Positions 2,787 through 47,200 of a stretch of DNA of 64,000 bases are shown one piece after another (position 1 is the stretch's first letter; the number at the start of each line of letters is the position of its first letter). The DNA lies in assembly GCF_029962835.1 (NCBI RefSeq), contig NC_080574.1:22604001-22668000 (forward strand), read 5' to 3'. The notes beneath the pieces are model-generated. The model was not told where the DNA came from, did no database searches, and saw only the letters and a list, made by a program, of their open reading frames with translations. Origin of the DNA: Magnolia sinica. Its lineage: Eukaryota; Streptophyta; Magnoliopsida; Magnoliales; Magnoliaceae. A program made the position numbers and the translations under genes.

Positions 2787-4270
2787 CTGCCAAAGAGAGA
2801 GAAAAGGAAAAAAAAAAAAACCAACGATCATTAGCCATGCTAACAGCAGTACTGGACTGTTACGGGCCCCACATGATATCCGGATGGCATCCAAACCGTC
2901 CAAAAACTACCCCCACCTCTTAGTAAAATGTGGTAAATTAATACCCCCTCGAGTCCTGTAATTGTTAACAAGCATCCCAAATGAACCGGGCTGGGCTGGG
3001 CTGGCCTGATCTAGCCCGCTATGGTCGGCCTTTGGGCTGAGGGTGGAGCCCTTGAGCGTTATGCCCAACAATTCAATGGATGGATAGTGGGCCCGGCCCT
3101 AACACTCGCTATCCTACCCATCATGCATACACATCTAGAGAAAATTTCCCTGGGAACCGATTCTCATTAGAACCTATCCTGATGATTTTCGTGGGGCATC
3201 CAATCCGTCCAATAAACACGTCACCTCGTGAAATCTCTAACGCCGAGAAATTAGTCTGATCCAAAACTCAGGTGGGCCACAGCAAAGGAAACAAAGTGAG
3301 AAGGGAGGTGCACCCTTAATTTTCACCAGGGCCGCATGAGTTGCAAAACAGCCTATTTTTCGCCTTGAGGGTCTTTGGTGTGTCCAATTCATATTAAATA
3401 CACCTAAAATGCCTTTTTTTCCTAATTATAATAAAATCAGGTGATATTATTTCACATGGATTCACACTCTCTTTCAGCAATGAATTTAAAACACACGCTG
3501 CCATACACAGTTTACTAAACTAGATTGATTTTGAGCCCAGTGATCTCATGATGAGGCCCATCTTAATAACATCAAGAGGTTGTAAGTAATCATTCCTTCC
3601 CATCCCATGAGAGATGGTGCAATGAATAAAGTATCTAGAAAGGAGTGGCATGGGAAAAACGCACCCATTGCTAGCAAGAACCTTCCTCGTGTACTCAACC
3701 TTCTTAACACAACCATAGCAAAGTTCCTCAAGTGTACACTCCAGCATCTTCTCGACGGGCACCGGTTTCTTCGGAATAACAGTGCAGGTGAACATGATGG
3801 GCTTCTCATCCTTTCTGCGGGGGCTATGCATGACTTTGTGCTTTGAGGGACCACCCTCCTTCTGTGCACCCTCTCTTTTCTCTGTAGAGGACCCAACACC
3901 GGGCATGTTTCCGTGCACCTTGTCATTAAGAGCCTGAAATGAAGAAGAGCCCACCAATCAGAACTGCCCAAATAGTATATGGTGATCACCATCAAGTGGG
4001 CCAAAAGGAGAATCGTCAGTGGTCCAAATTTTACACGGTCAAGATCATCTACTATTCATACTGGATCCATGTGGGGCCCATGTTTTGCCCGGTACGGTTG
4101 GGACCCGTGTGCGTGCGAGACGTGTTAGGTGGAGAGTTAAAACATGGGATGGCCGTACACCGATATATGTATGCATGCATGTCTGTACGTACCTCGTAAG
4201 CTTGTATGATGCCTTTGAGCTCGGGTCCGGGTTTATGGGAAAATAGGCAGATCCGAGGATGCAATCTCAT
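2342..4270 (-). CDS. J-less class B Hsp40 / DnaJ peptide-binding protein (3 exons)
   Basis: Joining 4193-4270, 3665-3933 and 2342-2786 gives 792 nt, or 263 codons plus stop, in one open frame with GT-AG introns. Residues from about 90 on match the two C-terminal beta-barrel domains of class B (DnaJB1-type) Hsp40: LECTLEELCYGC, PGWKKGTKITF, ADVIFTISEKKHPLFKR, ALTGCTLSIPLLGG and KRGDLRIKF, ending ILQDSS. There is no zinc finger. The J domain is missing: only a relic of its end (HP, then LKGIIQAYEALND) remains, without helices I-II or the HPD triad. Such proteins can bind clients and dimerise but should not activate Hsp70. Arabidopsis has comparable J-less proteins (At1g44160-like, from memory). 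Residues 27-65 are a basic, low-complexity linker. A real J-domain exon upstream is not excluded. Confidence 0.85.
3665..3933 (-). CDS. Hsp40 exon 2
   Basis: 269 nt. The acceptor is TTCATTTCAG before GCTCTTAATGAC, and the donor is GTGCGT after AATGG (phase 2). It encodes the basic linker and the start of C-terminal domain I (ECTLEELCYGCVKKVEYTRK). Confidence 0.85.
4193..4270 (-). CDS. Hsp40 exon 1
   Basis: Twenty-six codons start at the ATG at 4270 and end in phase 0 at a GTACGT donor. The ATG follows a pyrimidine-rich (CT)n tract, and a TATA-like TTAAAATA lies about 70 bases upstream, so this can be the true start. The same tract followed by ATGAG could also act as a splice acceptor for a more distal exon. 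Confidence 0.65.
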
Positions 4271-5701: not shown

Positions 5702-6229
5702 GGGAAGCGGATTGCGTCCTACCCCCGCCCGGACGATAATCCGTCCGGGCAGCGAGCTGTGGGGGCCACAGTGATTTAAATACTTTATCCACGCCGTTTA
5801 TCCCTTTTTTCAGATCATTTTACAGCATGATCATAAAAATGAAGCATGTACACAGTTCAGGTGAACCACACCAAAGGAAGCAGCATTGATAATGAAACCA
5901 CCGTTGAAACCTTTCTAAGGGTCACAGTGATGTTTTTTTACCATCCAACCTATTCATAAGGTCATGTATACCGACCTGTATGAAGTGAAAAAAAGAAAAA
6001 AATCAGCTTAATCCGAAACTTCTGCAGCTCCCAAGACGTTTTTAATGGTGAGCGTTCAACCCTCACTTTGTGGTCCACTTAAACAGTTGTTCCACCTAAT
6101 TTTTTTTTTCACATACTAAAATGATCTATAAATATGGATGGCTGGCATGGATAAAACCCTTACATCAAGGTGAGGCCCACAGCTCTCTGCCCATACGGAT
6201 TACCGTCCGGGGGTAGGACGCAATCCGCT
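5702..6229. mobile_element. Mutator-like TIR element, copy A (11-bp TSD)
   Basis: It starts GGGAAGCGGATTGCGTCC and ends GGACGCAATCCGCT, with inverted homology running further inward (CGTCCGGGCAG and CCGTCCGGG). It is flanked by the exact 11-bp duplication GCCGGCCAAAC at 5691-5701 and 6230-6240. The length of 528 bp without an ORF, long TIRs and the TSD size suit a non-autonomous Mutator-like element. The interior has the GTGGACCACACC, ATCCAACCTGTTCAT and TTTTTAATGGTG words that mark this high-copy family through the window. The exact edge could shift by 3 bp, because GGG belongs to either TSD or TIR. Confidence 0.75.
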
Positions 6230-14800: not shown

Positions 14801-16094
14801 ACTGTTAGCTACCCCCACTAAAGAATGGATACCAAGACCTCAATGTTGAAGCGAATGCATCTTTGCTCGATCTACCACTTGAGGTATGGATCAGGTGTCT
14901 GCAGAGTAGCTGATTCCCATACGTGCAGGCCAGTTGCTATTTGTATGAGTTATATGATACTCTGGTTGAGTGCGGTGGATTATACTCGTGCACATCAACC
15001 GCCTGTAGTACACGTGTAGACAGCAATAAGATCCAATTCGTGGGTCCAACTCAGGATGGTATGTGGTTTAAAAAATCACATTGGATGGAAGATCCTAACT
15101 TCTACTAAATAAAACACGTATGAATAAAAGAACCAGTCAAGGGCCTAAATTCAACGATCAGGTTTCCATTAATTCGATGGTTTGGATTTAAATATACATA
15201 TGCAATGGTGAATGTCACCAGCACAACTCTCAACAGATGGTACCGTGGAGTTCCTCTTTCAAAGGAAAAGACTTTGATACTCTGACAAAGTGTGATGTTC
15301 ATGGTCACGCACTGACAAACTGTGCCCATGGTAGACCAAACATGCCATTTACATGGAAGCGGATCGTGTCTCCTCCAGCCACGAACGGGCAGTTTTGTGG
15401 GCGGGCCCACAATGGTGTATCCCTTCTTACAGATTATTTTAAAGTATGTGCTCAAAAAATGAGGCAGATGCAACGATCAAGTGGACCAAACCAACTAATA
15501 AGCTTGGGTTGCAGTAAATGCACAAATTACTAAATGCAATTAACAATAAATGCAAGAGTCGTCTGTGTGTTGAGCAGCGAGACTCACTACTGAAGTGATG
15601 TTACCAAGTTCTGTGGGCCCCATGATGATGAATGTTTTGTATCCATGCCGTTTGTCCATTTTTAGAGATCATTTTATAACAATAGACAAATAATGAGTAA
15701 AATCAAAATCTCCACCGGACCACACCATAGAAAACAGTGGGGAGAGTGACACCCACCATTAAAAACTTCTAAGGCCTGTATAAGTTTTCGATCAAGCTGA
15801 TACTTGTGTTTTCCCTTATTTCATGTCTGTGTTAACTTGTGAACAGTTTGGATTTCAAATAAACATCATGGTGGGCCTTAGGAGGGTTACAATGGTGGGA
15901 ATCACTCTTCCCACCGTTTTCTATGGTGGGGTCTACTAAAGCTTTGGATATGTCTAATTATTTTTCTCATGCCCTAAAATTATATCTCCAAATGGTGATT
16001 AACCATTAAAAAAATTTTGTGGACCACAAAAGCTTCAGATCAAGATGATATATTTTGTGCAATTTATTCATCTAGGTGCTTGTGACCTTATCAA

Positions 16095-22984: not shown

Positions 22985-23450
22985 TATGTGGCAAAACTCT
23001 GTGGGCCCCACCATGATGAAAATGTTATTCATACTGGCCACTCATTTTATGGTATCAGCCAAAAAATGAGGTAGATCCAAAGCTCTAGTGGATCATACCA
23101 TGGGAAGCAGTGGGGACAATAACGCCCACTGTGAAATCTTCCTAGATCCCACTATGATGTTTATTTTCCATCCAACATATTCATAAGGTTACAAAGATAT
23201 AGATAAAGAGAGAGCATAAATTTCAGCCCGATCCAAAACTTCCATGACTCTCAAAAAATTTTCAATGATATGCATTCAATTTCCAATTTTTCCTATGTTA
23301 TTGTCCACTTGAGCTTTTGTGTCTGCCTCATTTCTGGGCTCCTGCCCCAAAATGATCTGGGAAAATGGATGGACGGCATGTATAAAATGCATACATCATG
23401 GTGGGTCCATGAAGTTTTACCACATTCACACATCACGGATGGTGCTGTGT
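22985..23450. repeat. TIR-repeat family copy
   Basis: Bounded approximately by ACTCTGTGGGCCCCACC and ATGGTGGGTCCATGAAG. Interior words in order: GGCAGATCC-like, AGCAGTGGGGACAATAACG, CCATCCAACATATTCATAAGG, AAAGAGAGAGC, GTCCACTTGAGCTTTTGTG and GGATGGACGGCATG. Confidence 0.65.
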
Positions 23451-26322: not shown

Positions 26323-27400
26323 GGTGATCTCAACCACATGTGACCTACTTTTAGTCAATCACAATGGCATGCAATTTCCACCTCGGGCCCTTGTTGGATG
26401 ATCTCAACCATGCGGTTTCCATAGTTGATCATACCCATTTGATTACCATAACGGGCATCTCACAACCATGCGGAGCTCAGTCATAACCACTCCCTTTTAT
26501 TTGTTAGCTCCATCACTTGGATGATCTTAAATACCCTGACCATGTGTGGGGCAATTTGTTGTCTGATCTTTAACCATGCAGGCCTGGTAGTTGACCATAA
26601 GTGAGAGCGGATTAGGTGAGACCCCGGTCTCACCCAAGATGGTGCAGCCCTTACTGGGAGTCCCATCTTGATGTATGTATCATGTATCTATGCCGTCCAT
26701 CCATTTTTTCATATCATTTTAGGTCATTACCTCGAAAATGAAGTAAATCCAATTATAAGGCGAACCATATCATAAGACACATTGGTGGTTGACTATACTA
26801 CCATTAAAAACTTCATTGAGCTCAACTTAATTTTTCAAGTGTGTTTATTTATCATCCAATCTATTGATAAGGTCATATAAGCCTAGATGAAGGGAAAAAA
26901 CAAATATCAGCCTGTTCTAAACCTTTCGTGGCCCATTAATGGTCAACTAACATTGTTTCTTATGATGTGGTTCGTTTGATAATTGGATCTTCTTCATTTT
27001 TTGAATAATGCAGCAAAATGATATGGAAAAACGCATGGACTACATGAATAGATAATACATACATCCAGAAGGCCCCACGGTAAGGGTCTTGGGTGAGGCT
27101 GTGGTCTCACTTAATCCGCCCTCTCCGTGACCGTGTGTAGTTTCAGGTGGGGCCCATTGTTACTTGATCTTAACCATGTGGACCATCACTCATCAATTAT
27201 AAACACGTGCATTGTGCATTTCCGTGTGGGGCCATCACTGGATGATCTTAACCATGCCATAACCATTGTTAGTCAATTTAATCATTTTCATTTCCACGTA
27301 GGCCAACCATGTGCATTTTCACAACCAGATCATTAGATGGCCTTAACTTTCTGGGGCCCACTTTCGATCTATCATAACTAAGCTTGTGTGTTTCTCAAGA
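26323..27400. repeat. Degenerate tandem array (GATCTTAACCATG unit), split by a TIR repeat
   Basis: A short motif near GATGATCTTAACCATG recurs about every 60-85 bases at 26323-26590 and again at 27155-27340, together with GGGGCCATC / GGGCCCTTG spacers. Between the two halves lies a TIR-repeat copy. The units are diverged, so the array is old. Confidence 0.5.
26590..27125. mobile_element. Mutator-like TIR element inside the tandem array
   Basis: The left side GCGGATTAGGTGAGACC and reversed right side GCGGATTAAGTGAGACC are close inverted repeats, then TCACCCAAGA on both. The interior has ATGCCGTCCATCCATTT, CATCCAATCTATTGATAAGG and ATCAGCCTGTTCTAAACC, as in the other copies. It belongs to a TIR subtype different from the 5702 copy. 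The TSD is unclear. Confidence 0.6.
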
Positions 27401-35200: not shown

Positions 35201-38200
35201 TGAGAAAGAAATCCACTTATGAGTTCTAAAAAAAATTACTTCTTGCAAATTTCCTGTAGAAGAAAGAGCTAAGTGATTCCCCTTTGGTTGTGAGTGAGTC
35301 TAACCCATATTGGTTGAGTGATTCTTGGTTCATCGCTGCCGCTTTGCGATTGTAGAAAATTTCAGTTTTGACAGGTTTGTTGCTTGCAACGTTTTTGGCA
35401 CTTCTAATCAATGAATGATTTCTTAATTTTTCTGGTAACTCATCATCAAGTATATTTCTATCTTGCAAAATCTAATTTCATTCTGAGTTCCAAAAAAATT
35501 ATTAAAATTCTAGTAGTACCAACTGCCTAAAACTGATGATTTTTTGGACAGTTTCAAAATGTCCTAAAATCAGTCTCATTTGAGGTTGGGTTTTATTTTC
35601 TATTTATTTATTTATTACTGAAACTAGACTCATCAAGGTTCATTTTGGCTTTTGAATCACCTTAATTGGGGTTGCATCATATTTGCTTGCTTTTATGAAG
35701 TCAACAATGATTTATATGGAATCAATCTCTTAGTGGGGGTTACTCTAATTAGAGATTCATTTAGTGTCTATAGGAGGGGGAGGGGTGGTTTAGGAGGTGG
35801 GCATTCAAATTTATTCTAAGTGTGAGTTTTATTTTCCATAAATATTGTGAGAAGTTTGATATCAATAAAATTATTTCTCCCCCACATCTCCATTATTCTT
35901 GTGGGTGTACCTTTATCCATTTCTTTGCGATTTGGGTGTCGAGTTCTCATTGACTTGATAACTGGGTTGCACTAAATAAGCTCAACTTCTCTCATACATC
36001 CCTGCCATGCCTTAAAGTCCCTGACAATTGCGGCATTGCCCAATCATTTTAAAGCGAAAGGAAATTTCGCCAGATGTAAGAATAGAAAGGGTAATGAATG
36101 AATAGATGGTTGGCCAATTCTGCATCCTTGAGGCATACGCTACATGCATTCGTAATAAGCATGTTCCTTTTCTGGAGATTATCTATCGAATTCACTTTGT
36201 TCTTCTCCACCAACTGAGTGAAAGTAAGGACCTTAGGAGGGCCTTTGTACTTCCAAATGAAAGAGATAGGGTCTAGGCTTCTAAGAATATAGTTCCTTGC
36301 AAAAGTCAACTGGGACTTCACCAAGAACCTGCCCCACTTGTCTTGCCCTGAAATTCGGGTATCCAAATAGAGTGATCCGGACCCGAATCCCAAGCCCTTG
36401 AAATACAAGGTTCACTTTTATTTAAGTCTATATAACTATTTTCATTCCCAATATACCAAGATTCCTCATAACATCATTTATATCAACTAAGCACAAATAA
36501 AAATCTTGGGTAGAGCACCTGTGCAGAGCACCTATGCATGTATCTTTTAGGCAATTGCTTAGGGTAGAGCACCTGTGCCGATCTTTTGGGAATGACCCCG
36601 GGCAGAGCACCCGTATAATGATATTTTAGCCATACACTCTACAATTTCAGAATTTCTGTATACTAAATATAATTAATTACAGCTACATTATATCAATAAT
36701 GTATTCTCCCAAAAATTGACACATCACGTATATAACAATTTAGATTTTTATGGAGAAACAAATACAAAAACAATAGCATGAAATTTTGAATAAAATAATA
36801 ACCCATTGATGGTAACTTAAAGAAGGCATACGCTTTAAGGGAAAAACAGACATAATTTATTTGCGTATAAGTAATCATCAATTTAATGTGTACCTTATTT
36901 AATAACACAAAAAGAATTCATGAATTAATAACTATTTAATGGTAATTCAAGAAGGCATATACTAGGAAGGAAGAATAAACATAATATATTCAAGATTTTT
37001 ATGCACAAGTAGTCATCAATATAATGTGTACATTATTCAACACATCAACACAAAAGGATTCCATGCCTATGATATTTACGTATAAATCTCGGTGTGGGGT
37101 ATGGGTTAGATCACCTACCTGATGCGTGACCTGTGTCAAGAGACGACTATAACACAAAGTAATGGTTGATGATCTTGTCGAGGAAGATGGTACCTTTTCT
37201 AATGGTGACTTGTTGATCGATGGCTTTTCAACGATTTTCCTTCTTTAGGATGATGGAGTTTAATGTCAGAAGCTTGGGAGGTGAGCGATTAAGGATTTAA
37301 TGGAGATTTGTCAGTGGTTTTGGAGGTTCGTGGCTTCGTGGTTGAGGCGGCACTGATTAATATCATTATTATCAACATTATTTTCTTCCTTTTTTCTTCT
37401 TTTCGTAAGATGAATGGTTCGGATGGCTTTGGGTGCGGATTCGTTCCGTTGTCGAGCGGAAAAAATGGGAGAAGTGGGAGAGAGGTTCGGGATATTGGTT
37501 TGGTAGTGACGCATGTTTTACATTATGTGTGTGTGTGTGTGTTTTTCATCTCTCTTTTTTGTCTAAGATAGGTTAAAATGACAAGATCCACCGAATGAAC
37601 GATTCAGATCATGACTCTGGGCCCACTTTCCCAGTGGTTTGGAGGTAAAAGATGGGTTCGGGAGCCTTTTGTTGTGAGCGGAGAAAACGGAAAATGAGAG
37701 AAAAGCTCGAGAAGATTGGTAATGCACATCACTTGAAATATATTTTATTTATTTATTTTTTGTGGCGTTGCAAGGAATTCATTCCGTTCATCTGTTTTGC
37801 CTAGTCATGCTAGGGCATGTGTCCAAAAATGAAGGCGATCTAAAGTTACTATGGGCCACACCAAAGGGATCAGTGGGGTTTGGAATACCTACCATTAAAA
37901 AAAATGGGATGTTACACCACTTGTCTCCTAACCACACTCTACTATCCTGATTTGAGGGGACTAGCTCCGATTGTTGGATAAGGGACATGACATGAGCTTA
38001 GGGAATTCTACTATCTCGGCGTTCGTTAAGGGCCTGTTTGTTTTCGTGGGGATGTTGTGAATGCATCTTCTCAGTGCATTTATTACAACACTATGTAGTT
38101 TTGGGTGAAATGTCTCCTCCAATCATTACAGATTTTCCTGTTTGGAAAATCTTACTTTTTGTGGAAACCCGTCATCATTACTCTTTTCCATGTTTGAACA

Positions 38201-41200
38201 GTAGCTAGGAAATAGGTCTTGAGTGACGCACGTGCAGGACCACCGAAAGTGCCAGAGACATGCACTTACCAGGGACCCACACAATTCTTCTTTTAGATGC
38301 CGATTCGGTGGATCTAGGGAACCACCTGGCTGGGTTGATCTGTAGCCTTGGGTTCCACCGTGATTGTGTGTTTTATTTTCACTGTCCATCTCTTTAGCTC
38401 ATTTTAGAGCATGAGCCCCAAAAAGAATAAAAAATCCAAACCTCAAGTGAACAACATTATGCCCACCATTAACAGATTATTGTGGGCCATGAAAGGGTTT
38501 GATCAAGCTCATTTTTATATCCAGTCTATCACTTATGAAGATGTTTGATGGCAAATAATGTAATGGACCAATGGCATGCGATTTCGGAAGTTGGTGGATA
38601 CGTTTGATCAACGGCTTATATGAGATGCTCTCTAACAACCACAACACTCATTTAAGTGGACCAACATCTAAGCCCGACAAGGGCAAAGCTGTTGAACCAA
38701 ACTGCATGTGCAACGACTCTTCTCATATAATCCCTTGTAGACCACCGAAACTATTGGTCACCGTTGTTTCTAATGGCGTGGTCAATATCAGATTATGATC
38801 AGCTTCATTTTTACTATCCTGCCATAAAATTAGCATTCAAATTGGATAGACAGCATGGATGTAAGGAATAGTTGTAAAAATGGCCCCACAACATGGGAGG
38901 GAAGTTGTCCAAAACCACGTCCTACAAACAGTAGACAGTTAAACAACAATAGTCATGTGCATCCGCATAAACAAAACCAAAAAACCAAAAAACAAACTTG
39001 TCCAAAATCACAAACGACCCATGGATCTCCATACATCATCAATGATAGAGGACCATTAGCTGAAAAACCATAACCATGACAGCAACACCGAAAACAATAA
39101 ACAAAACCAGCGTCGAGTCACGATCAAAGTCACTACAGCCAATTGAGTTCCCAGGGTTGGCTGTACGTGTCGTTGCTGGTATCATGGGAGCAGGCATATC
39201 AGGTGCGAAGTAGTAACCGGACGCATTGTCAACACCAATGCCTGCCTGATTGGGAACGGCATCACCTATGAATGTGCTCCATGCAATAAAGGCCTCCTCT
39301 GTATACTTGTATGATCTGAACCGAGCATGGTTGTACCCCTCAACTTGGACCTTGCATTCCTCCCATGTGTAATATATTCCTAGCTGTCTCCCTACGAAGA
39401 CAACGTAAAATTTTGCCATCTGTTCAAAAGAAGAAGTCATTAATCATCGTTAGATTATCCATAGTTATAAGCAGTTACATACTAGGTAAAATTTCACTGG
39501 CGCAAGTGTCGCCATGACTTGCGCGTAAGTTAAACTTGCATGTAATTCAAATAAATAACAATACATCCCCATGATTAAACTATACGAGGATCCAACCAAC
39601 TATATATATCAATGCATGTGTTGTGTTCAAATACCAGCGTGTGATTTGTTATCCAAAAGTGCTCCAAAAAATAAGTGTGCTATCCAAACTTACACAAGTC
39701 CAAAAAATATTATAGTTAAATATTGTCCAAAAAGCAAAGCTTACGAATGACTGATTCGACAGTCAAGCTAGGCACAATGTTCCTTCATATGTGGGGTCCA
39801 TCCCCATTTAACAACATCCTTACAAATGAAATTCTCTTCTCTTTGACAAAGTTAAGGAAGGCGGCGCCCCATATGATTCTTCTTTAGATAGCAATTTTGT
39901 CGCCCATAGAACCTCATCAGCCGTGAGTCCCTCCAACTCTTCCAAAACCGGTATAATCTGTGACATCCGACCAAAGTTCTTACCCTTGTCGATTGAAATG
40001 GCAATTGACTTCATGGCTCCCCCAATATCAACCATCCCAGTGCCAATCATATCAACCGGTCGCTCCACTCTCGGTCTCTTTTTAGAATTAACCGTGGAAT
40101 TCGTGTTGCAGGAGGCATTCCCATTCTGCGTCGGACTCGGATAAGGAATATTGTTGCCTCTACGGCTGTCGTAAGGCCAATGGATTTCCGGTGCGGTGTC
40201 GCCAAGATCTTCGGAAGATATAATGTTAATATCATCATTCAGATCGACTGTGTGGTTGGACGAAACCTCAATATCTTTCCATCGAGGAGTGGTAGCGCTG
40301 GGTGGGAAGTTGCCAGTGGCACATGCTTTACCGGTAGCCCCGTCGTTTCCGAATATGTACTCAAGATCATCGTACCTTGGCATCGGTTTCCCACAAAACT
40401 GAGCAGCATCTGGATGGGACTAGACACAATACAAAAAACAACCGATCATTAATATTGCATAAGCATGATGAGATATAATTTAAACTGAATTCTAGTTATT
40501 CCTTAGTGTAGTCCATCCACACTTCATTTAAAGCGACGAAAATTTCTAAGTCTGGGTCCCATCCAAATCTAGACACACTACGCAAATCTTGACGGTGAAG
40601 TACTTTTTCACGGTGCGGATGCGATTTTTAACGTTTCCATTATTGATCTTGAGGCCTAACTTCACCCTCGTGTTCTTAAAGACTCCTAGGGGTGCACACG
40701 GGTCGGTTTGGTCCGGTTCTGGGGTGAAACCGGAACCGAACCGTTCCTAACGGTTCTAAGATATTCGGAACCGGAACCGGACCGTTGGCACCCTAGAACC
40801 GAACCGGAACCGAACCGTTAAAACCGGTTCGGTTCCGGATCGGTTCCACGGTTCTCGGCTTTTTATAATCTAGCCCAATTGCATGTTTAATTCTATTATC
40901 TAGTCCATGTCCATGCATGTTGTGGTCCATTTGATGAATGGTTTAGATATTGTATAAGGTGTGCAAAAATACATTTATGAAAATAATTAAATGGTGCATT
41001 ATAAACCATAAATCATGAGTCAAATATGGAAACAATCAAAGGGTTCTTGGTTCGGTTTTAAGTTCGGTTCTACGGTTCGGTTCTACAGATCGGATGCACG
41101 GTTTGGTTCTACGGATCGGTTCACGGTTCGGTTCGGTTCTACATACCCCCAAACCGAGAACCGAACCAATGTAACCGGTTCTTTGATTTTTTGAACCGGA

Positions 41201-44200
41201 ACCGGAATCGGTGCACTCTAGAACCAGACCAAACCGGACCGTTTGGTCGGTTCCGGTCCGGTTCCACGGTTCTACTGGTTCAATGTGCACCCCTAACGAC
41301 TCCTGTATACGATTCCTTTTTAAAGCCAACACCACTTTTTCTTCTAGCAAGGACCAACTCCATTAGTCCATTGATTAGGATACCGTCCATGTCATCCGTC
41401 CAACGAAGAACACCTCCATAAGACTGGTCCTCAGGTGATTTGTTCATGGTATGCTTTCTGGGAGATCTCCGTGGGGTATTACTTATTAGTAGGTGAACGT
41501 AAGGGATTTTTCGTTGGAGTAGACAGTACGGATCGTCTATTCGGTAAGGTAGACCGAAGCGGTCTACCTTAATCTACAAGAAGATAAATTAGGAATGCAA
41601 GTAGAAAAATTTTCATTATTAAGATGATATATTCTGTCCTTTAAATAAATTAGTAGTGAAGCCTACCCCATTTCAAAAAAGTCGTTATGTTAATTAAACA
41701 AAATATGGAACAACAACATGGGTGATCTAGTGGTGAGATTCCTGAATGCTACTTCAAGAACCACTGAACATGTTCGTCTTATTACAATGTATCTAATTTA
41801 TTTGACTCACTGGATGAGCTTGGTTCCACATTTTGGATGCGATTTCATCGCGTGTTCTTGCCCACTCATCTCTTTCGTGTGGGGGTGACATTCAAATGCA
41901 CACGATCTTCATCGAGGACGGATACTTCTATAGGTGATGGGGTCACACCATCGGCACCACAGTTGGACGACCCCTCAAACTCAACCATGTCATCGTCTCC
42001 TGACATCTTTATGAAGTTGTGTAACACACAACATACTAGCATTATCTTCACTTGAGTTTGTACGGGATATTGTGGAGCAATGTTCAGAATTGGGAACTTG
42101 GCTTTGAAAACTCCAAAACATCTTTCTATTACATTTTGTAGTTGTGCATAGCGATAATTGAATAACTCCCAAGCATTGGATGGTTTCCGACCTGTACGAT
42201 ACTCATTGAGATGGTAACGTACGCCGCGATATGGGGCCATGAAATCGGGAGAGTGCGCATATCCTGCATCTACTATGTAGTATTTACCTACATTTTGAAA
42301 ATAATTTTTGATCAATAGCAATCCTTATTCGTTTGATGTTATGAAGAAATCAGAGTGCTTGATGTCCATGGGTTTACCACAGGGGATTATGAAAGGATCG
42401 CTTGAGTGAGTTAAAGCACTTTGCAAAATGCGTGCATTTAATGCTGAACCTTCCCATCCCGCTAACACGTAAACAAATTTCATGTCAAACTTGCAAGCTG
42501 CCATGACATTTTGAGATATGAATCCTTTCCTATTTCGATAGACAACACTATCCACAGGTGCTACAAAAGCAGGAATGTGTGTCCCATCTATCACACTGAT
42601 ACAATCCTAAGTCAAACTTGTCAAACTTTAGGTGATATTGGCATTTGTATTTTGATGACCAAGGACCCTAATCAACTGTAATAAAATATATGTTATATCA
42701 TACCTGAAAGTATTGAGCCCAATGTGGGTTCGATGAAATCTCGACTGCGGTCTCAAGTGTAGGTAGTGTAACAAAATCTGCATATAAAAAAAGATTGCAT
42801 CAAATACTCGATTAAAGTATCGGCTTATTGTTTCGCCTGACCTTACAAAATGATGTCCAATCACTCGGTTCCGGACATTGTGACTTAATGTATAGAGGAA
42901 CATGACAAGCTACTCTTCTATACTTACATGCTTCGCACCCGCCAATAGACCCTTGTCTCGTAAAATTGAGCAAAGATTGAAGGACGTAGTCTTCTTCATC
43001 CGTATTTACGAAACACAATTAGTCTCCATTGCCCTAATAATCCGGTCGATAATACGGGCATGGTCATAATCAGCAGACCTAGGAGGGTTTCGAAAGAGGT
43101 AAGTACGACAATACTCCCTTGTTGCTATTGCAGCAGATCCCACAACCAATATTACTGCAAAGAATTCCAACTCTTCGTCTGTCCAGTCGCTCCTAGCCAT
43201 ATTGATTCACCTCTCTCTCTATATAGGATGCATGTGAATTTGATTAGAACTAGGACACTATATTTTATGGATGACTAACTATACATCGACCAGACTAACT
43301 GAATGCATCTAATTCAGTGAGGTGGCCGCGCACGGTAACTTTCATTTCATTTTCAACAGGATGTTATTGAGTTTTTCCAATTCCCTGCGCCACGTGCAAA
43401 TATCCTACACGAGTGTAAGATCTGAGCTTTCTATTAGATTGCAAGTAATGCTTAGATTGTATATCTTTCAAAATCAGAGAATTTCACTCTCCAAATCGGG
43501 CACCAACATACAAAGTAAACTGTTGGTTGAAAATAATTTCTCTAGACATTCATATGTTAATTTCTCTCTGTAGTCCATTTTTTATGTCAAAAGATCTTAA
43601 AAAGTTGTATATCCAGATGGAAAGTTCATATTACACACACGTGCCACATTGGAAGCATGGCCCGCTTGTGGATGTGTACCACTGACATGCTACTTGTCGA
43701 ATTAGGTAAACCTCTTGCTGATTCCACACATGTGCCGCATATGTAAGGCCCCACAAAATCCTGAGATTTTTTCCATTTGGATGGAAACAACATTTGAAAA
43801 TCCTCGAGTGGAAATCTAACAAAATCCGAACGCATTCCTTGAATGCGTCGGACTCTCCATTTCATTTGTGCCACGTGGTCCACATGAGGAGTGAAATAGC
43901 ATGAATTTTTTATTTTTTATTTTTCGGAAAATCTAGGTAATGTAGCACACTTGATGGACAAATATGATCAGGAAAATATGTTTTATGTTGGCACATGTCC
44001 CTGGTTTGGATTGGCAGGACGCTTAGACGCGTGTGGAATTAGCAAAGCTCTGAAACACGGTTGTGGTGTCTCGCGGATTGCATGCTGAATCCAACACCAC
44101 GCCATACATCCATTTTTCCATCTTGTGTTCATCCCAAAATTGAAGCTTATCCAAAGCTAGTGTGCACCATACCGTAACAAACAGTTGAAATAATGATTTC

Positions 44201-47200
44201 CACCGTTGAAACCTTTCTAAGGCCCCACAGTGATGTTAATTTATCATCCAAACTGTTCATAACATTTAAAAAAACATAGATGAATGGAAAAAGACAAATA
44301 TAATCGCGACTCAAGACTTTTGTGGCCCCTGTGAAATTTTCAATGGTACAAATTCAATTCACACCGTCTCGTGTGGTGTGGTCCATTGTAGCATTGTATA
44401 TGCTTCGGTTTTGAGCTAAGGGCCTAAAAATATTTTATAAATGGATGGACAGACTAGATAAAATGTGGAAAGCACAGTGGACCCCACCGAGTTTACCCAG
44501 TACGCAATCCGCGACCCCATCATTCTAGCCACGAGCGGCAGTTTTGTGGTGAGAAATTGGATTGTGTATTGAGTCTCTCCTCTCGTCGCTCATATCGTTC
44601 TGAGTTTCAATGGTTGGCCATATACACATGAGTAAAACTCCGCAGGGCCCACTGTGATTTCATGGGGTTTATCCATGCCGTCCATCCGGTTTCGCCGATG
44701 ATTATAGTGGTTGAGCCCAAAACTGAATTCTCAGTTGCAGTCTCAGCATGACAGTACACCCATATCGTACTGAGTATACTTAGTTGCTCCTATCGTGAAT
44801 GTGTATGGGCTATCCACGCTGACCATCCGTTTTTCCCTCTAATTGTAGCAGCTGTTCCAACAGCTAAAGAATGCCAAAAAGCTCAAGTGGGCCACACAAG
44901 CAGAAACTGTGCGAAAATTGACTTCCAACATTTAAACCTTGGTAGGGCCCACAGTATTGTATATTTGTTATCCAACCGGTTTAAGTTCACAGAGACATGG
45001 ATGAAGAAAAAGCACAAACCACAGATTGATCCAAAACCTGTTTGGCCCCAAGAAATTTTCCATTCCACAATATCAAATCACACTGCATCAATGCTGTGGT
45101 GCACCCGAGATTTGAATAATCTTCGTTTTTTGACTGAAGCCATCAGATTATCTGTTGACCCCACGGAGTGGATAACCTATGTATCTCATGACGCTTCTGT
45201 TATCCACGCCGTCCATTAGTCAATTTCATAGTGGTAAGGTGCGTCCAGGAAGATGAGGCAGATTGGATATTCAAGTGGACCACACCAACTAATAATCCTT
45301 CTTCTTGCGGCATATGCAAGAGATGTGATAGACGACATGGATGAAGAACACGTCACGAACGGAGATTACCCACTTAGAGGCGAGCCACGATCCGTTTGTG
45401 GCTATAGACAAACGGAGATTCCCCAAAGAGACACACATACAGAACCCTCCTGTTGGCCTCCAACAGGAAGGGTGCATGCATGTATCGTATTGGTTGTACA
45501 TCATCATATATTACAGTCAAAACGAGGAAGACGAAGGAGTTTGGAAATATGGCCGAGACTACATACCTGTGAACGACTTCTGCCTTCTTTACCCGTCTGA
45601 GCTCCGCAACAATGGCCGAAAATTTTCACCAACAATACCAACGATACTCACCTGTAAGGACAAAGATACTGAATCAGTTATAAGAAACGACTTCTCAGAG
45701 CACAAGACTAGATATTGCGGTTTTTCCCAGGAGCGAAGGAGAGAAATATACCAGTGCCGAAGTTTTTCGCTGGTTGAAGCCATCCAACAGAGAGATTTGA
45801 ATAATATAGGAAGCAAAACGGTGACTCCTCGAAGGTGCTCCAGCGGACCACCGAGTTTGGGTTTTATCTTGTCGACGCCTCGAGCCTTTCGCGGATTTCG
45901 CGCGGGATTTCCCTTGGAAATCGCCGAGCTTACATACTGGGAAATCCCATTTGCAGACCACAGGATATTGGGTGCATTTACACCGCCCGCCAAATGAGAG
46001 ACGGGGTCATGATGACGGGTTTCCCTGTGCTTTCACCTTTCCCCTTGAAAAACAAACAGGTCCTAAATTCCGACGGACAAATAGGAGCCCATGCCACATT
46101 CTTGCAACCAACATCACTTGAGAGATGGATACATCTTCTTTAACCACTAGCTTGTACAACCTAGAGAAAACCTTTATGAGAGGCCTCTCATGCACCATCT
46201 ATCTAGCCAAGAACAAATCCTATTTCCCTTACTTGGTTTGAAGGCTATCTCCCTCATAAAGGAAGGCACAACTTTCAAGACCGCTCTTCATAAGCCTGAA
46301 GATCTATAGATGACAAGCGAGGAAACCCCCACCAACATTTGCTCCATATTTGCCATGAATGACCTGGTTCCAAAGGTGGCCTTTGCTCCCTGAATCTCCA
46401 TAACCATTTACCCAAAAGAGCCACATCCATGAAATTGAGATTTGTGATTCCCAGGCCTTCGTGCTCCTAGTCCTTGGGCTTGTACACATTATCCTATTCC
46501 TACCTTACTAGATGGAACGCTTGCTTGTGCCTTGTGAAAGGAAGTCTTTCCGTATTTTTTTCCTAGCCTATGAATAACACTCATCGCGCACCGAAAGAGC
46601 ATCGCAAAAGAGAAAGCATACTTGCAAAGGCAAACTAGTTGGTTTGGGTGGATTTAGGGAGTGAAAGGAAGAAAAGGAGATAAGGGAATAGAGGGAAAAG
46701 TGTGAGAGGTGAGACAGTTGGGAGAAAAGCTTTCTTGTGTGTTAGTGCTTGAAGCCCGTACACACTTTTTTTTTAATTGCTAGAGAAACAAATACGCACT
46801 CCACAGGAGCACACAACGCTGTGCACATGCATACATAAAAAAGGAACACAAATGAAATACACAATTTGCATTCTATATACTCCCCTTCAAGTTGAAGCAT
46901 AGATTTCGATCATGCCCAACTTGCCAGTGATACGAAGAAGGCACGCTGACTAAGAAACTTGGTAAGAACATCGGCCAACTGGTCTTTAGAGCAAACAAAA
47001 GGAGTTTCAATTTCTTTGTTGGTAACCTTTTCTCGAATGAAATGATAGTCAATCTCAATGTGCTTCATGCGTTCATGAAACGCTGGATTGCTAACAATAT
47101 GAACGACAACTTGATTGTTGCAATGCAAATAAATGGGACTGAAAGGATTATAGCTGAGTTCTTGTAAGAGAGTTTGGAGCTAAATAAGTTAACATGCCGC

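Follow-up and report, generated by a model that had tools for sequence, protein, structure and literature searches.

PIF/Harbinger transposons of plants (PIF, Pong/Ping, AndroPIF) share a DDE_Tnp_4 transposase, a Myb/SANT protein, terminal inverted repeats (TIRs) starting with GGGCC and a 3-bp TWA target-site duplication (TSD), and in the available portions of published descriptions they encode two proteins (PMC4482050, PMC11161486, PMC9921582). Here we describe a lineage from one genome, that of Magnolia sinica, which shares these features and adds a third gene, coding for an RNase H1 N-terminal (viroplasmin, PF01693) domain. The lineage thus departs from a two-gene coding capacity, the third gene being common in it, and we read it as a PIF/Harbinger variant with an added gene rather than as a non-member. 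Relative to the two-gene descriptions, a third, selected RNase H1-N gene appears to be new; no published report of this third gene was found in the literature searched, which lay outside Repbase and subscription journals.

The N-terminal domains of RNase H1 (human 3bsu, yeast 1qhk) have the domain sequence in common with the third protein, including the tryptophan and tyrosine positions; in the third protein no RNase H catalytic domain was found, K60 is lost in 24/24 sequences and a hydrophobic C-terminus is added. PF01693 is also common to the caulimovirus P6/TAV protein (viroplasmin), according to the part of PMC7102451 at hand; unlike P6/TAV, the third protein is small, is encoded by a Harbinger element next to the genes for the transposase and the Myb/SANT protein, and ends in a hydrophobic tail, with neither viral context nor full-length P6. 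Another PF01693 gene on a DNA transposon, capE of Pleurotus, is described in the accessible text of PMC4289320 as a gene that a fungal rolling-circle element (Helitron) has captured, while the third gene presented here is standard in its Harbinger lineage.

The element in the window and its third gene

The window, i.e. the whole 64,000-nt stretch of DNA analysed, contains an element bounded by the TIRs GGGCCTGTTTGTTT and GGACCTGTTTGTTT with TAA at both flanks; TIRs with a 3-bp TWA duplication, the PIF/Harbinger pattern, were found both here and in the sister copy L026. A three-ORF PIF/Harbinger element had been proposed at this place by the first-pass annotation, and the TIRs, the duplications and the gene content agree with it, all three ORFs being co-oriented on the minus strand. 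The features are as follows:

38030..46063, genes on -: whole PIF/Harbinger element, 8,034 bp (TIRs, TAA duplications, gene content of its own and of sisters)
38027..38029: left TAA target-site duplication (sequence)
46064..46066: right TAA target-site duplication (sequence)
38030..38043: TIR GGGCCTGTTTGTTT (sequence)
46050..46063: TIR, reverse complement GGACCTGTTTGTTT (sequence)
43006..43200, -: transposase N-terminal piece (78-88% identity to sisters L023-L026; no Pfam match)
42628..42903, -: transposase HTH piece, broken frame (HTH_Tnp_4 12.9 bits, weak, cut-off 27; sisters)
42325..42594, -: DDE domain, part 1 (DDE_Tnp_4 23.7 bits, slightly under the curated cut-off of 24.8)
41866..42321, -: DDE domain, part 2 (DDE_Tnp_4 52.8 bits, curated cut-off 24.8)
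41301..41417, -: Myb/SANT domain, piece 1 (homology to an L024 ORF with PF12776, 61.9 bits)
40687..41295 (alternatively 40688-41294): hAT-like MITE nested within the Myb/SANT gene, TIR TAGGGGTGCAC
40499..40686, -: Myb/SANT domain, further pieces in two frames (sisters, sequence)
39820..40383, -: C-terminal exon of the Myb/SANT protein (sisters; its end is frameshifted relative to them)
39417..39432, -: 3' splice-like site TTCTTCTTTTGAACAG directly ahead of the third-gene start codon (AG in 30/38 copies)
39039..39416, -: third gene, 125 aa + stop: RNase H1-N domain, linker and hydrophobic tail (PF01693, conservation, dN/dS)
39267..39416, -: RNase H1 N-terminal (Cauli_VI) domain, aa 1-50 (Pfam, PDB relatives; dN/dS 0.15)
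39048..39104, -: hydrophobic segment, 19 aa, Kyte-Doolittle 2.82, ending 3 residues short of the C-terminus (tail dN/dS 0.26)

The transposase and Myb/SANT ORFs expected from the first reading are present, but both are broken in the window copy: the transposase gene carries stops and frameshifts, and the Myb/SANT gene the same plus the hAT-like insert (607-609 bp, with an 8-bp duplication containing one mismatch, flanking bases read by eye), so that the copy is not autonomous. Judged by its sequence, the element is a defunct copy from a large PIF/Harbinger lineage whose elements encode three co-oriented genes. Pfam gave no match on the Myb pieces of the window, including the C-terminal Myb ORF, and these were identified by homology to the ORF of sister L024 that matches PF12776; the transposase of the same sister matches DDE_Tnp_4 with 97.4 bits.

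The third ORF, originally delimited as 39039-39440, is intact, with its start moved most likely to the second Met at 39416 (MAKFYVV...), since a CAG|ATG 3' splice-like site lies right before it. Among 38 copies examined, 30 have AG directly ahead of the start-codon position, with ATG there in 27 of these 30. The viroplasmin/RNase H1-N domain is confirmed by a PF01693 match of 53.8 bits (Pfam, cut-off 21, E 2.3e-14) and by matches in all five scanned relatives (41.8-62.0 bits), and its relatives in the PDB are 1qhk and 3bsu, both N-terminal domains of RNase H1. In the window protein and the five relatives Pfam matched the PF01693 part only, and in none of the six did it match the RNase H catalytic domain of an RNase H1 enzyme. 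The host RNase H1 gene was not singled out among the best 150 of 1179 PF00075 candidates.

The hydrophobic tail was likewise recovered, with a Kyte-Doolittle value of 2.82 over 19 aa. Values of 2.39-3.54, with 2-6 residues beyond the segment, were obtained for 34 of 38 third proteins, a count that is not independent because the tail pattern, which missed the four unscored sequences, also guided the search for ORF ends. Over their final 24 residues L010, L021 and L024 share an ungapped identity of only 0.04-0.08 with the window protein, but each of these tails is hydrophobic; when neutral divergence to about 70% was simulated, 57 of 2000 tails were still open and equally hydrophobic. With the membrane tail judged by hydropathy, the third protein is apparently membrane-anchored, its hydrophobic segment lying at the extreme C-terminus as in tail anchors.

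A chance ORF is ruled out by the PF01693 score (53.8 bits) and conservation, a position outside the element by the TIRs and TSDs, and a caulimovirus insertion by the context beside transposase and Myb/SANT genes. Among viral contigs none of 12 pattern matches to the third protein was confirmed; in the genome contigs collection 19 of 105 were, all in bacterial records. Eighteen of these 19 lie within query residues 1-58, L087 (29%) extends to residue 90, and none covers the tail.

Recurrence across the genome

Across the same 1.84-Gb genome, transposase, Myb/SANT and RNase H1-N genes repeatedly follow one another in this order. Since the whole-genome lists hold the best 150 of 1159, 1063, 1087 and 1504 candidates, the counts given here are lower bounds; the Myb list holds 150 of 151 matches. 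At 84 of the 150 listed Myb/SANT matches, the lists give an RNase H1-N match on the same strand and no more than 5 kb downstream, the median gap being about 513 bp; within the same distance there was none upstream and none on the opposite strand. A third gene is present at 43 of the 46 listed Myb matches closest to the window, so that sister copies do keep the ORF adjoining Myb/SANT, as was to be checked; the three other sites (L057, L058, L061) hold none or a fragment. Listed third genes accompany 54/150 listed transposase matches, against a mean of 0.085 neighbours when the RNase H1-N coordinates were shifted. Among the 96 transposase matches that have no third gene in the lists, twelve loci were picked by hand, ten of which rank 37-54 in the transposase list: eight do carry one, four do not, and two of these four are also without Myb.

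Of 20 regions hand-picked from the best 150 of 1159 with long open frames favoured, 15 contain all three genes in order, three Myb and the third gene (L017, L019, L027), L020 the transposase and the third gene, and L028 the third gene alone. The third gene also occurs in lineages whose transposase has an identity of 0.44-0.60 to that of the window (15/21 loci, transposase stretch >90 aa). It lies inside the TIRs and matching TSDs both in the window and in L026, the two copies with both ends and a matching duplication, in line with its proposed location within the element; L024 has TIR-like ends and no matching duplication. The sister loci rule out a gene peculiar to the window copy, and the third gene is general to a large lineage and no quirk of one copy.

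Selection and exchange of the third gene

For 19 of 24 window-type sequences (L026, L042, L046, L047 and L048, which have broken frames or lack a motif, were excluded) the dN/dS of the third gene was 0.345 (bootstrap 0.236-0.467), well under 1, which answers the check proposed for this ORF and rules out a gene without selection. By part it was 0.150 in the domain (15 of 171 pairs dropped), 0.707 in the linker and 0.258 in the tail; the pairwise values are not independent of one another. The third gene is under purifying selection.

Three dissimilar types of the third gene occur within the subfamily to which the window element belongs. Of the 46 listed Myb sites nearest to the window, 25 are window-type (by listing), seven listed as non-window-type are taken as type K (L024 and L023 were read), to which L050 and L051 are added, eight are type D (L049, L052-L056, L059 and L060, with L052 and L053 decayed), one is unclear and three have none or a fragment. 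The eight type-D sites are 76-80% identical to the window in Myb and 74-80% in the transposase. At seven of them the third gene instead resembles that of L021/L022, with 65-71% identity over 121-140 aa; the Myb of L021/L022 has 27-28% identity to the window Myb. The eighth, the decayed L052, gives 50% over 58 aa. The similarity of type D to the window stops 18 nt ahead of the ATG, and that to L022 takes over there, starting 12-27 nt ahead of its ATG.

Because the types are unlike and one resembles that of a lineage with a distant Myb, the third gene, which selection keeps, seems at times to have been swapped from lineage to lineage as a coding unit. Such a pattern could also arise by rapid local divergence and flank decay with no recombination: the linker evolves fast, the 3' breakpoints are not resolved, and the L022 similarity is limited to the coding exon, as flank decay alone would leave it. 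We consider this improbable, as type-D Myb and transposase stay near the window while seven of eight third genes are near those of L021/L022, and as the one similarity begins where the other ends. Exchange between lineages would point to a pressure other than transposition chemistry.

The same data bear on a passenger host gene fragment, captured once and carried without function, for which capE on the fungal Helitron (PMC4289320, as far as its available part goes) is a precedent. This reading is already disfavoured and appears very unlikely: the upper bootstrap bound of dN/dS is 0.467, the gene is retained at 43/46 closest listed Myb sites and in lineages with transposase identity of 0.44-0.60, and it is replaced rather than lost.

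Possible role of the third protein

The best overall explanation, to which we assign a probability of about 0.6, is a selected and exchangeable third gene whose product would be a tail-anchored duplex binder shielding or docking element nucleic acid. The specific role is put forward more tentatively, as one possibility below even odds. The protein would be anchored by its tail in the ER or outer nuclear membrane with the domain toward the cytosol, where it would bind dsRNA or RNA:DNA hybrids; such binding could shield element transcripts from RNA silencing or dock element nucleic acid at the membrane. Transposase and Myb/SANT protein alone would handle the cut-and-paste chemistry. Since ORF1 and TPase are the requirements named for PIF/Harbinger elements in the consulted part of PMC9921582, the third protein is most likely accessory.

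If this is true, an accessory function at a membrane is part of the equipment of some cut-and-paste DNA transposons, and a genome of this kind would owe many small 'RNase H1 N-terminal' genes to transposons. As an anti-silencing or docking protein encoded by a transposon, the third protein is a concrete candidate that can be tested. A stronger version, somewhat speculative, would make the gene a required yet exchangeable module of counter-defence: its product, tail-anchored and binding duplex RNA, would block host silencing of element transcripts, and Harbinger lineages would swap the gene in an arms race, as happens with viral silencing suppressors.

Residues contacting the hybrid are partly conserved in the 24 third proteins. 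The W43-equivalent is kept in all, the Y29-equivalent in 23, and the K59-equivalent is basic in 20; at the K60-equivalent position all 24 have Ser, Gly or Ala and none has Lys, and the F58-equivalent is His in 10/24. In the human domain W43A or KK59/60AA are reported to compromise binding (PMC10639055, in the portion available). Given the replaced K60- and F58-equivalents, hybrid binding by the third protein may be weak.

The loss of K60 in 24/24 also weighs against a nuclear protein anchored in the inner nuclear membrane, which would bind R-loops at the element or target and bring transposition complexes to the nuclear edge. A tail anchor, moreover, by default leaves the protein facing the cytosol. 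The other two element proteins do act on DNA, and a tandem human hybrid-binding domain images R-loops in living cells, as the accessible part of PMC10639055 states, so we hold the nuclear placement to be unlikely rather than implausible.

A shielding or docking role is likewise preferred to that of a translation helper favouring expression of the element's other genes, which looks doubtful at best. TAV, with the same Pfam domain, is described as a translational reinitiation factor (PMC7102451, available part), and three co-oriented genes with a median Myb-to-third-gene gap of about 513 bp among listed matches would suit it. Against it, the third gene matches the PF01693 part only, and the 3' splice-like site right before its start codon (30/38) suggests an exon structure of its own.

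The three genes of the element and a probable revised start for the third

The window carries a PIF/Harbinger element bounded by the terminal sequences GGGCCTGTTTGTTT and GGACCTGTTTGTTT, the second as written on the opposite strand, with TAA at both flanks (TTA on the gene strand). Its features are as follows.

Features of the element in the window
38030-46063: PIF/Harbinger element, 8,034 bp, with TIRs and flanking duplication; all three genes on the − strand
41866-43200, − strand: DDE_Tnp_4 transposase pieces, Pfam 52.8 and 23.7 bits, the latter slightly under the cut-off
~41417 to 39820, − strand: Myb/SANT gene, frame broken by frameshifts and a nested hAT-like MITE
40687-41295: the nested hAT-like MITE, 607-609 bp, within the Myb/SANT gene, TIR TAGGGGTGCAC
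39039-39440, − strand: third ORF, Pfam match PF01693 (53.8 bits; cut-off 21)

A Pfam scan of the intact C-terminal Myb/SANT ORF of this copy gave no match; the corresponding ORF of the sister copy L024 matches PF12776 (61.9 bits), and the transposase ORF of that sister matches PF13359 (97.4 bits). The third ORF had been ascribed an RNase H1-N/viroplasmin-type domain in the first-pass annotation, and the PF01693 score, together with PDB matches to 1qhk and 3bsu, both N-terminal domains of RNase H1, bears this out.

The first Met of the listed third ORF is probably intronic, because TTCTTCTTTTGAACAG directly precedes the second Met (39416) and AG is widespread at that site in other copies. Of 38 copies, drawn from several lineages, 30 have AG directly before the start-codon position, 27 of these with ATG at the position; eight have lost it, including the close relatives L029 and L032. 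A start at the second Met gives a protein of 125 aa, composed of the domain (MAKFYVV...), a linker and a hydrophobic end. In another third-gene type a tail-like ORF is separate from the domain ORF at six of eight loci (L001-L004, L007, L008), as if it were placed on a second exon.

Several smaller structures were also seen. The hAT-like MITE has an 8-bp duplication whose two copies, AAGACTCC and ACGACTCC, differ at one position, and many GGTTC/GAACC repeats. A 19-nt subterminal inverted repeat (38163-38181 and 46006-46024, 95% complementary) lies at unequal distances from the element ends, and the 5' part of the element holds an interspersed repeat (44129-44465) that is 66-79% similar to 5835-5998, 15837-15950 (inverted), 23055-23389 and 26838-26907.

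Spread of the gene trio in the genome

The third gene is a standard gene of this lineage and not a local accident of the window copy. In this genome of 1.84 Gb (127 contigs), PF01693 matches number at least 150, from 1159 candidates. Transposase, Myb/SANT and third gene occur in the same order in 15 of 20 regions fetched around such matches, and at least one partner gene in 19, the regions being hand-chosen and biased to long frames. Independently of these regions, 84 of 150 listed Myb/SANT matches are followed on their own strand, no more than 5 kb downstream, by a listed third-gene match, with none upstream and none on the opposite strand among the third-gene matches listed; the median distance is 513.5 bp (union of two third-gene lists, among matches listed). 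Similarly, 54 of 150 listed transposase matches have a listed third-gene neighbour, none upstream or on the opposite strand, against a mean of 0.085 after shifting the third-gene coordinates.

Since absence among the matches listed is not absence from the genome, the sequence was read directly at those of the 46 closest Myb sites, 13 in all, for which no third gene was listed. Ten carry it, L061 retains a fragment of at most 14 aa, and in L057 and L058 direct reading found none. The ORF is thus kept beside Myb/SANT, as the first-pass annotation had proposed to check, at 43 of the 46 closest sites among the Myb matches listed. Out of 12 transposase loci hand-picked from 96 without a listed third gene, eight carry one; in L062 and L067 Myb was present and no third gene was found, and in L065 and L071 neither was found.

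At L062 a second transposase follows the Myb gene at the position expected for the third gene, and at L010 a transposase-Myb pair with no third gene detected lies upstream of a complete trio. The sister L026 contains a nested 413-bp MITE (3489-3901, reverse-oriented coordinates) with a TIR of the same type (GGGCCTATTTGTTT) and a TAA duplication, probably a non-autonomous relative.

Constraint, tail and possible function of the third protein

For the third gene of 19 window-type copies out of 24, dN/dS averages 0.345 (codon bootstrap 0.236-0.467), with 0.150 in the domain, 0.707 in the linker and 0.258 in the tail, so that the selection check suggested in the first pass came out in favour of constraint. 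The ratio is 0.475 in the quartile of closest pairs and drops to 0.298 in the most distant one, the pattern to be expected if dead copies decay and their ancestors were constrained. A second lineage gave 0.402 (domain 0.190, linker 0.591, tail 0.480; 11 copies). For comparison, the transposase stretch gave 0.218 (7 second-lineage copies) and 0.394 (5 window-lineage copies), and the Myb C-part 0.368 (6 copies).

The hydrophobic tail noted at first reading recurs in four lineages despite dissimilar sequence: tails of L010, L024 and L021, each from another lineage, share 0.04-0.08 ungapped identity with that of the window, and those of all four are hydrophobic to the end (34 of 38 tails scored, a count that is not independent, as ORF ends were located by the tail pattern). 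Neutral simulation to ~70% divergence left open and equally hydrophobic tails in 57 of 2000 runs. The bacterial loci L074-L092 match the RNase H1-N domain only, without the tail.

In RNase H1 this domain holds the RNA:DNA hybrid, and one study describes W43A or KK59/60AA as compromising this grip (PMC10639055). Among 24 aligned third-gene proteins the W43 equivalent is Trp in all and the Y29 equivalent Tyr in 23; position 59 is Arg/Lys in 20 and Gln in four, position 58 is split between Phe (14) and His (10), and position 60 is never Lys. Hybrid binding is therefore plausible, not assured, as judged from these residues. A nuclear R-loop role would be an unlikely use of such a domain. We prefer, with a probability of roughly one in three, a tail-anchored protein whose duplex-binding domain would face the cytosol at the ER or nuclear envelope and would shield or dock element RNA. 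siRNA pathways operate at ER and nuclear-envelope membranes.

The same Pfam domain is found in the caulimovirus reinitiation factor TAV (PMC7102451), which speaks for a translation helper, a role we consider quite improbable. Myb/SANT is given as the additional ORF of PIF/Harbinger in an 836-genome survey (PMC4482050), Medicago elements carry TPase and orf1 in either order (PMC2213677), and two proteins are described as needed for transposition of published elements (PMC9921582, PMC11161486). Since the reported need is for two proteins, the third, PF01693-bearing gene added in the window's lineage most likely encodes an accessory protein. A literature search, with Repbase and closed journals outside its scope, found no three-gene Harbinger with an RNase H1-N domain and no transposon-borne PF01693 gene other than capE of a fungal Helitron (PMC4289320).

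Probable exchange of the third gene

Transposase and domain distances correlate (Mantel r 0.766, 0/5000 permutations, 15 loci), therefore the genes travelled together on the large scale. Within the window's own subfamily there are three unlike third-gene types. Similarity to the window is unbroken through the third gene in L025-L027; it stops 216 bp before the third-gene start in L023, L024 and L050 (223 bp in L051), and L023 and L024 are 50% identical to the window in the domain versus 81% in the transposase. At eight further sites (L049, L052-L056, L059, L060; type D) it stops 18 nt upstream of the ATG; identity to the window at these sites is 76-80% for Myb and 74-80% for the transposase. 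In seven of them, all except the decayed L052, the third gene shares 65-71% identity over 121-140 aa with that of L021/L022, a lineage whose Myb is 27-28% and transposase 58% (full stretch, L022) identical to that of the window.

DNA similarity of the type-D sites to L022 runs from 12-27 nt before the L022 ATG to the stop codon. The likely explanation is that another lineage supplied a replacement for the coding exon and its 3' splice site; quicker decay of the flanks could also explain why similarity ends at the stop codon. Mean dS is 0.591 among the window-type third genes of the window, L025 and L027 (three pairs only); in sets of copies that overlap with these and are not identical to them, it is 0.175 for the transposase and 0.267 for the Myb part. 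This is a hint of additional exchange or of a rate that differs locally.
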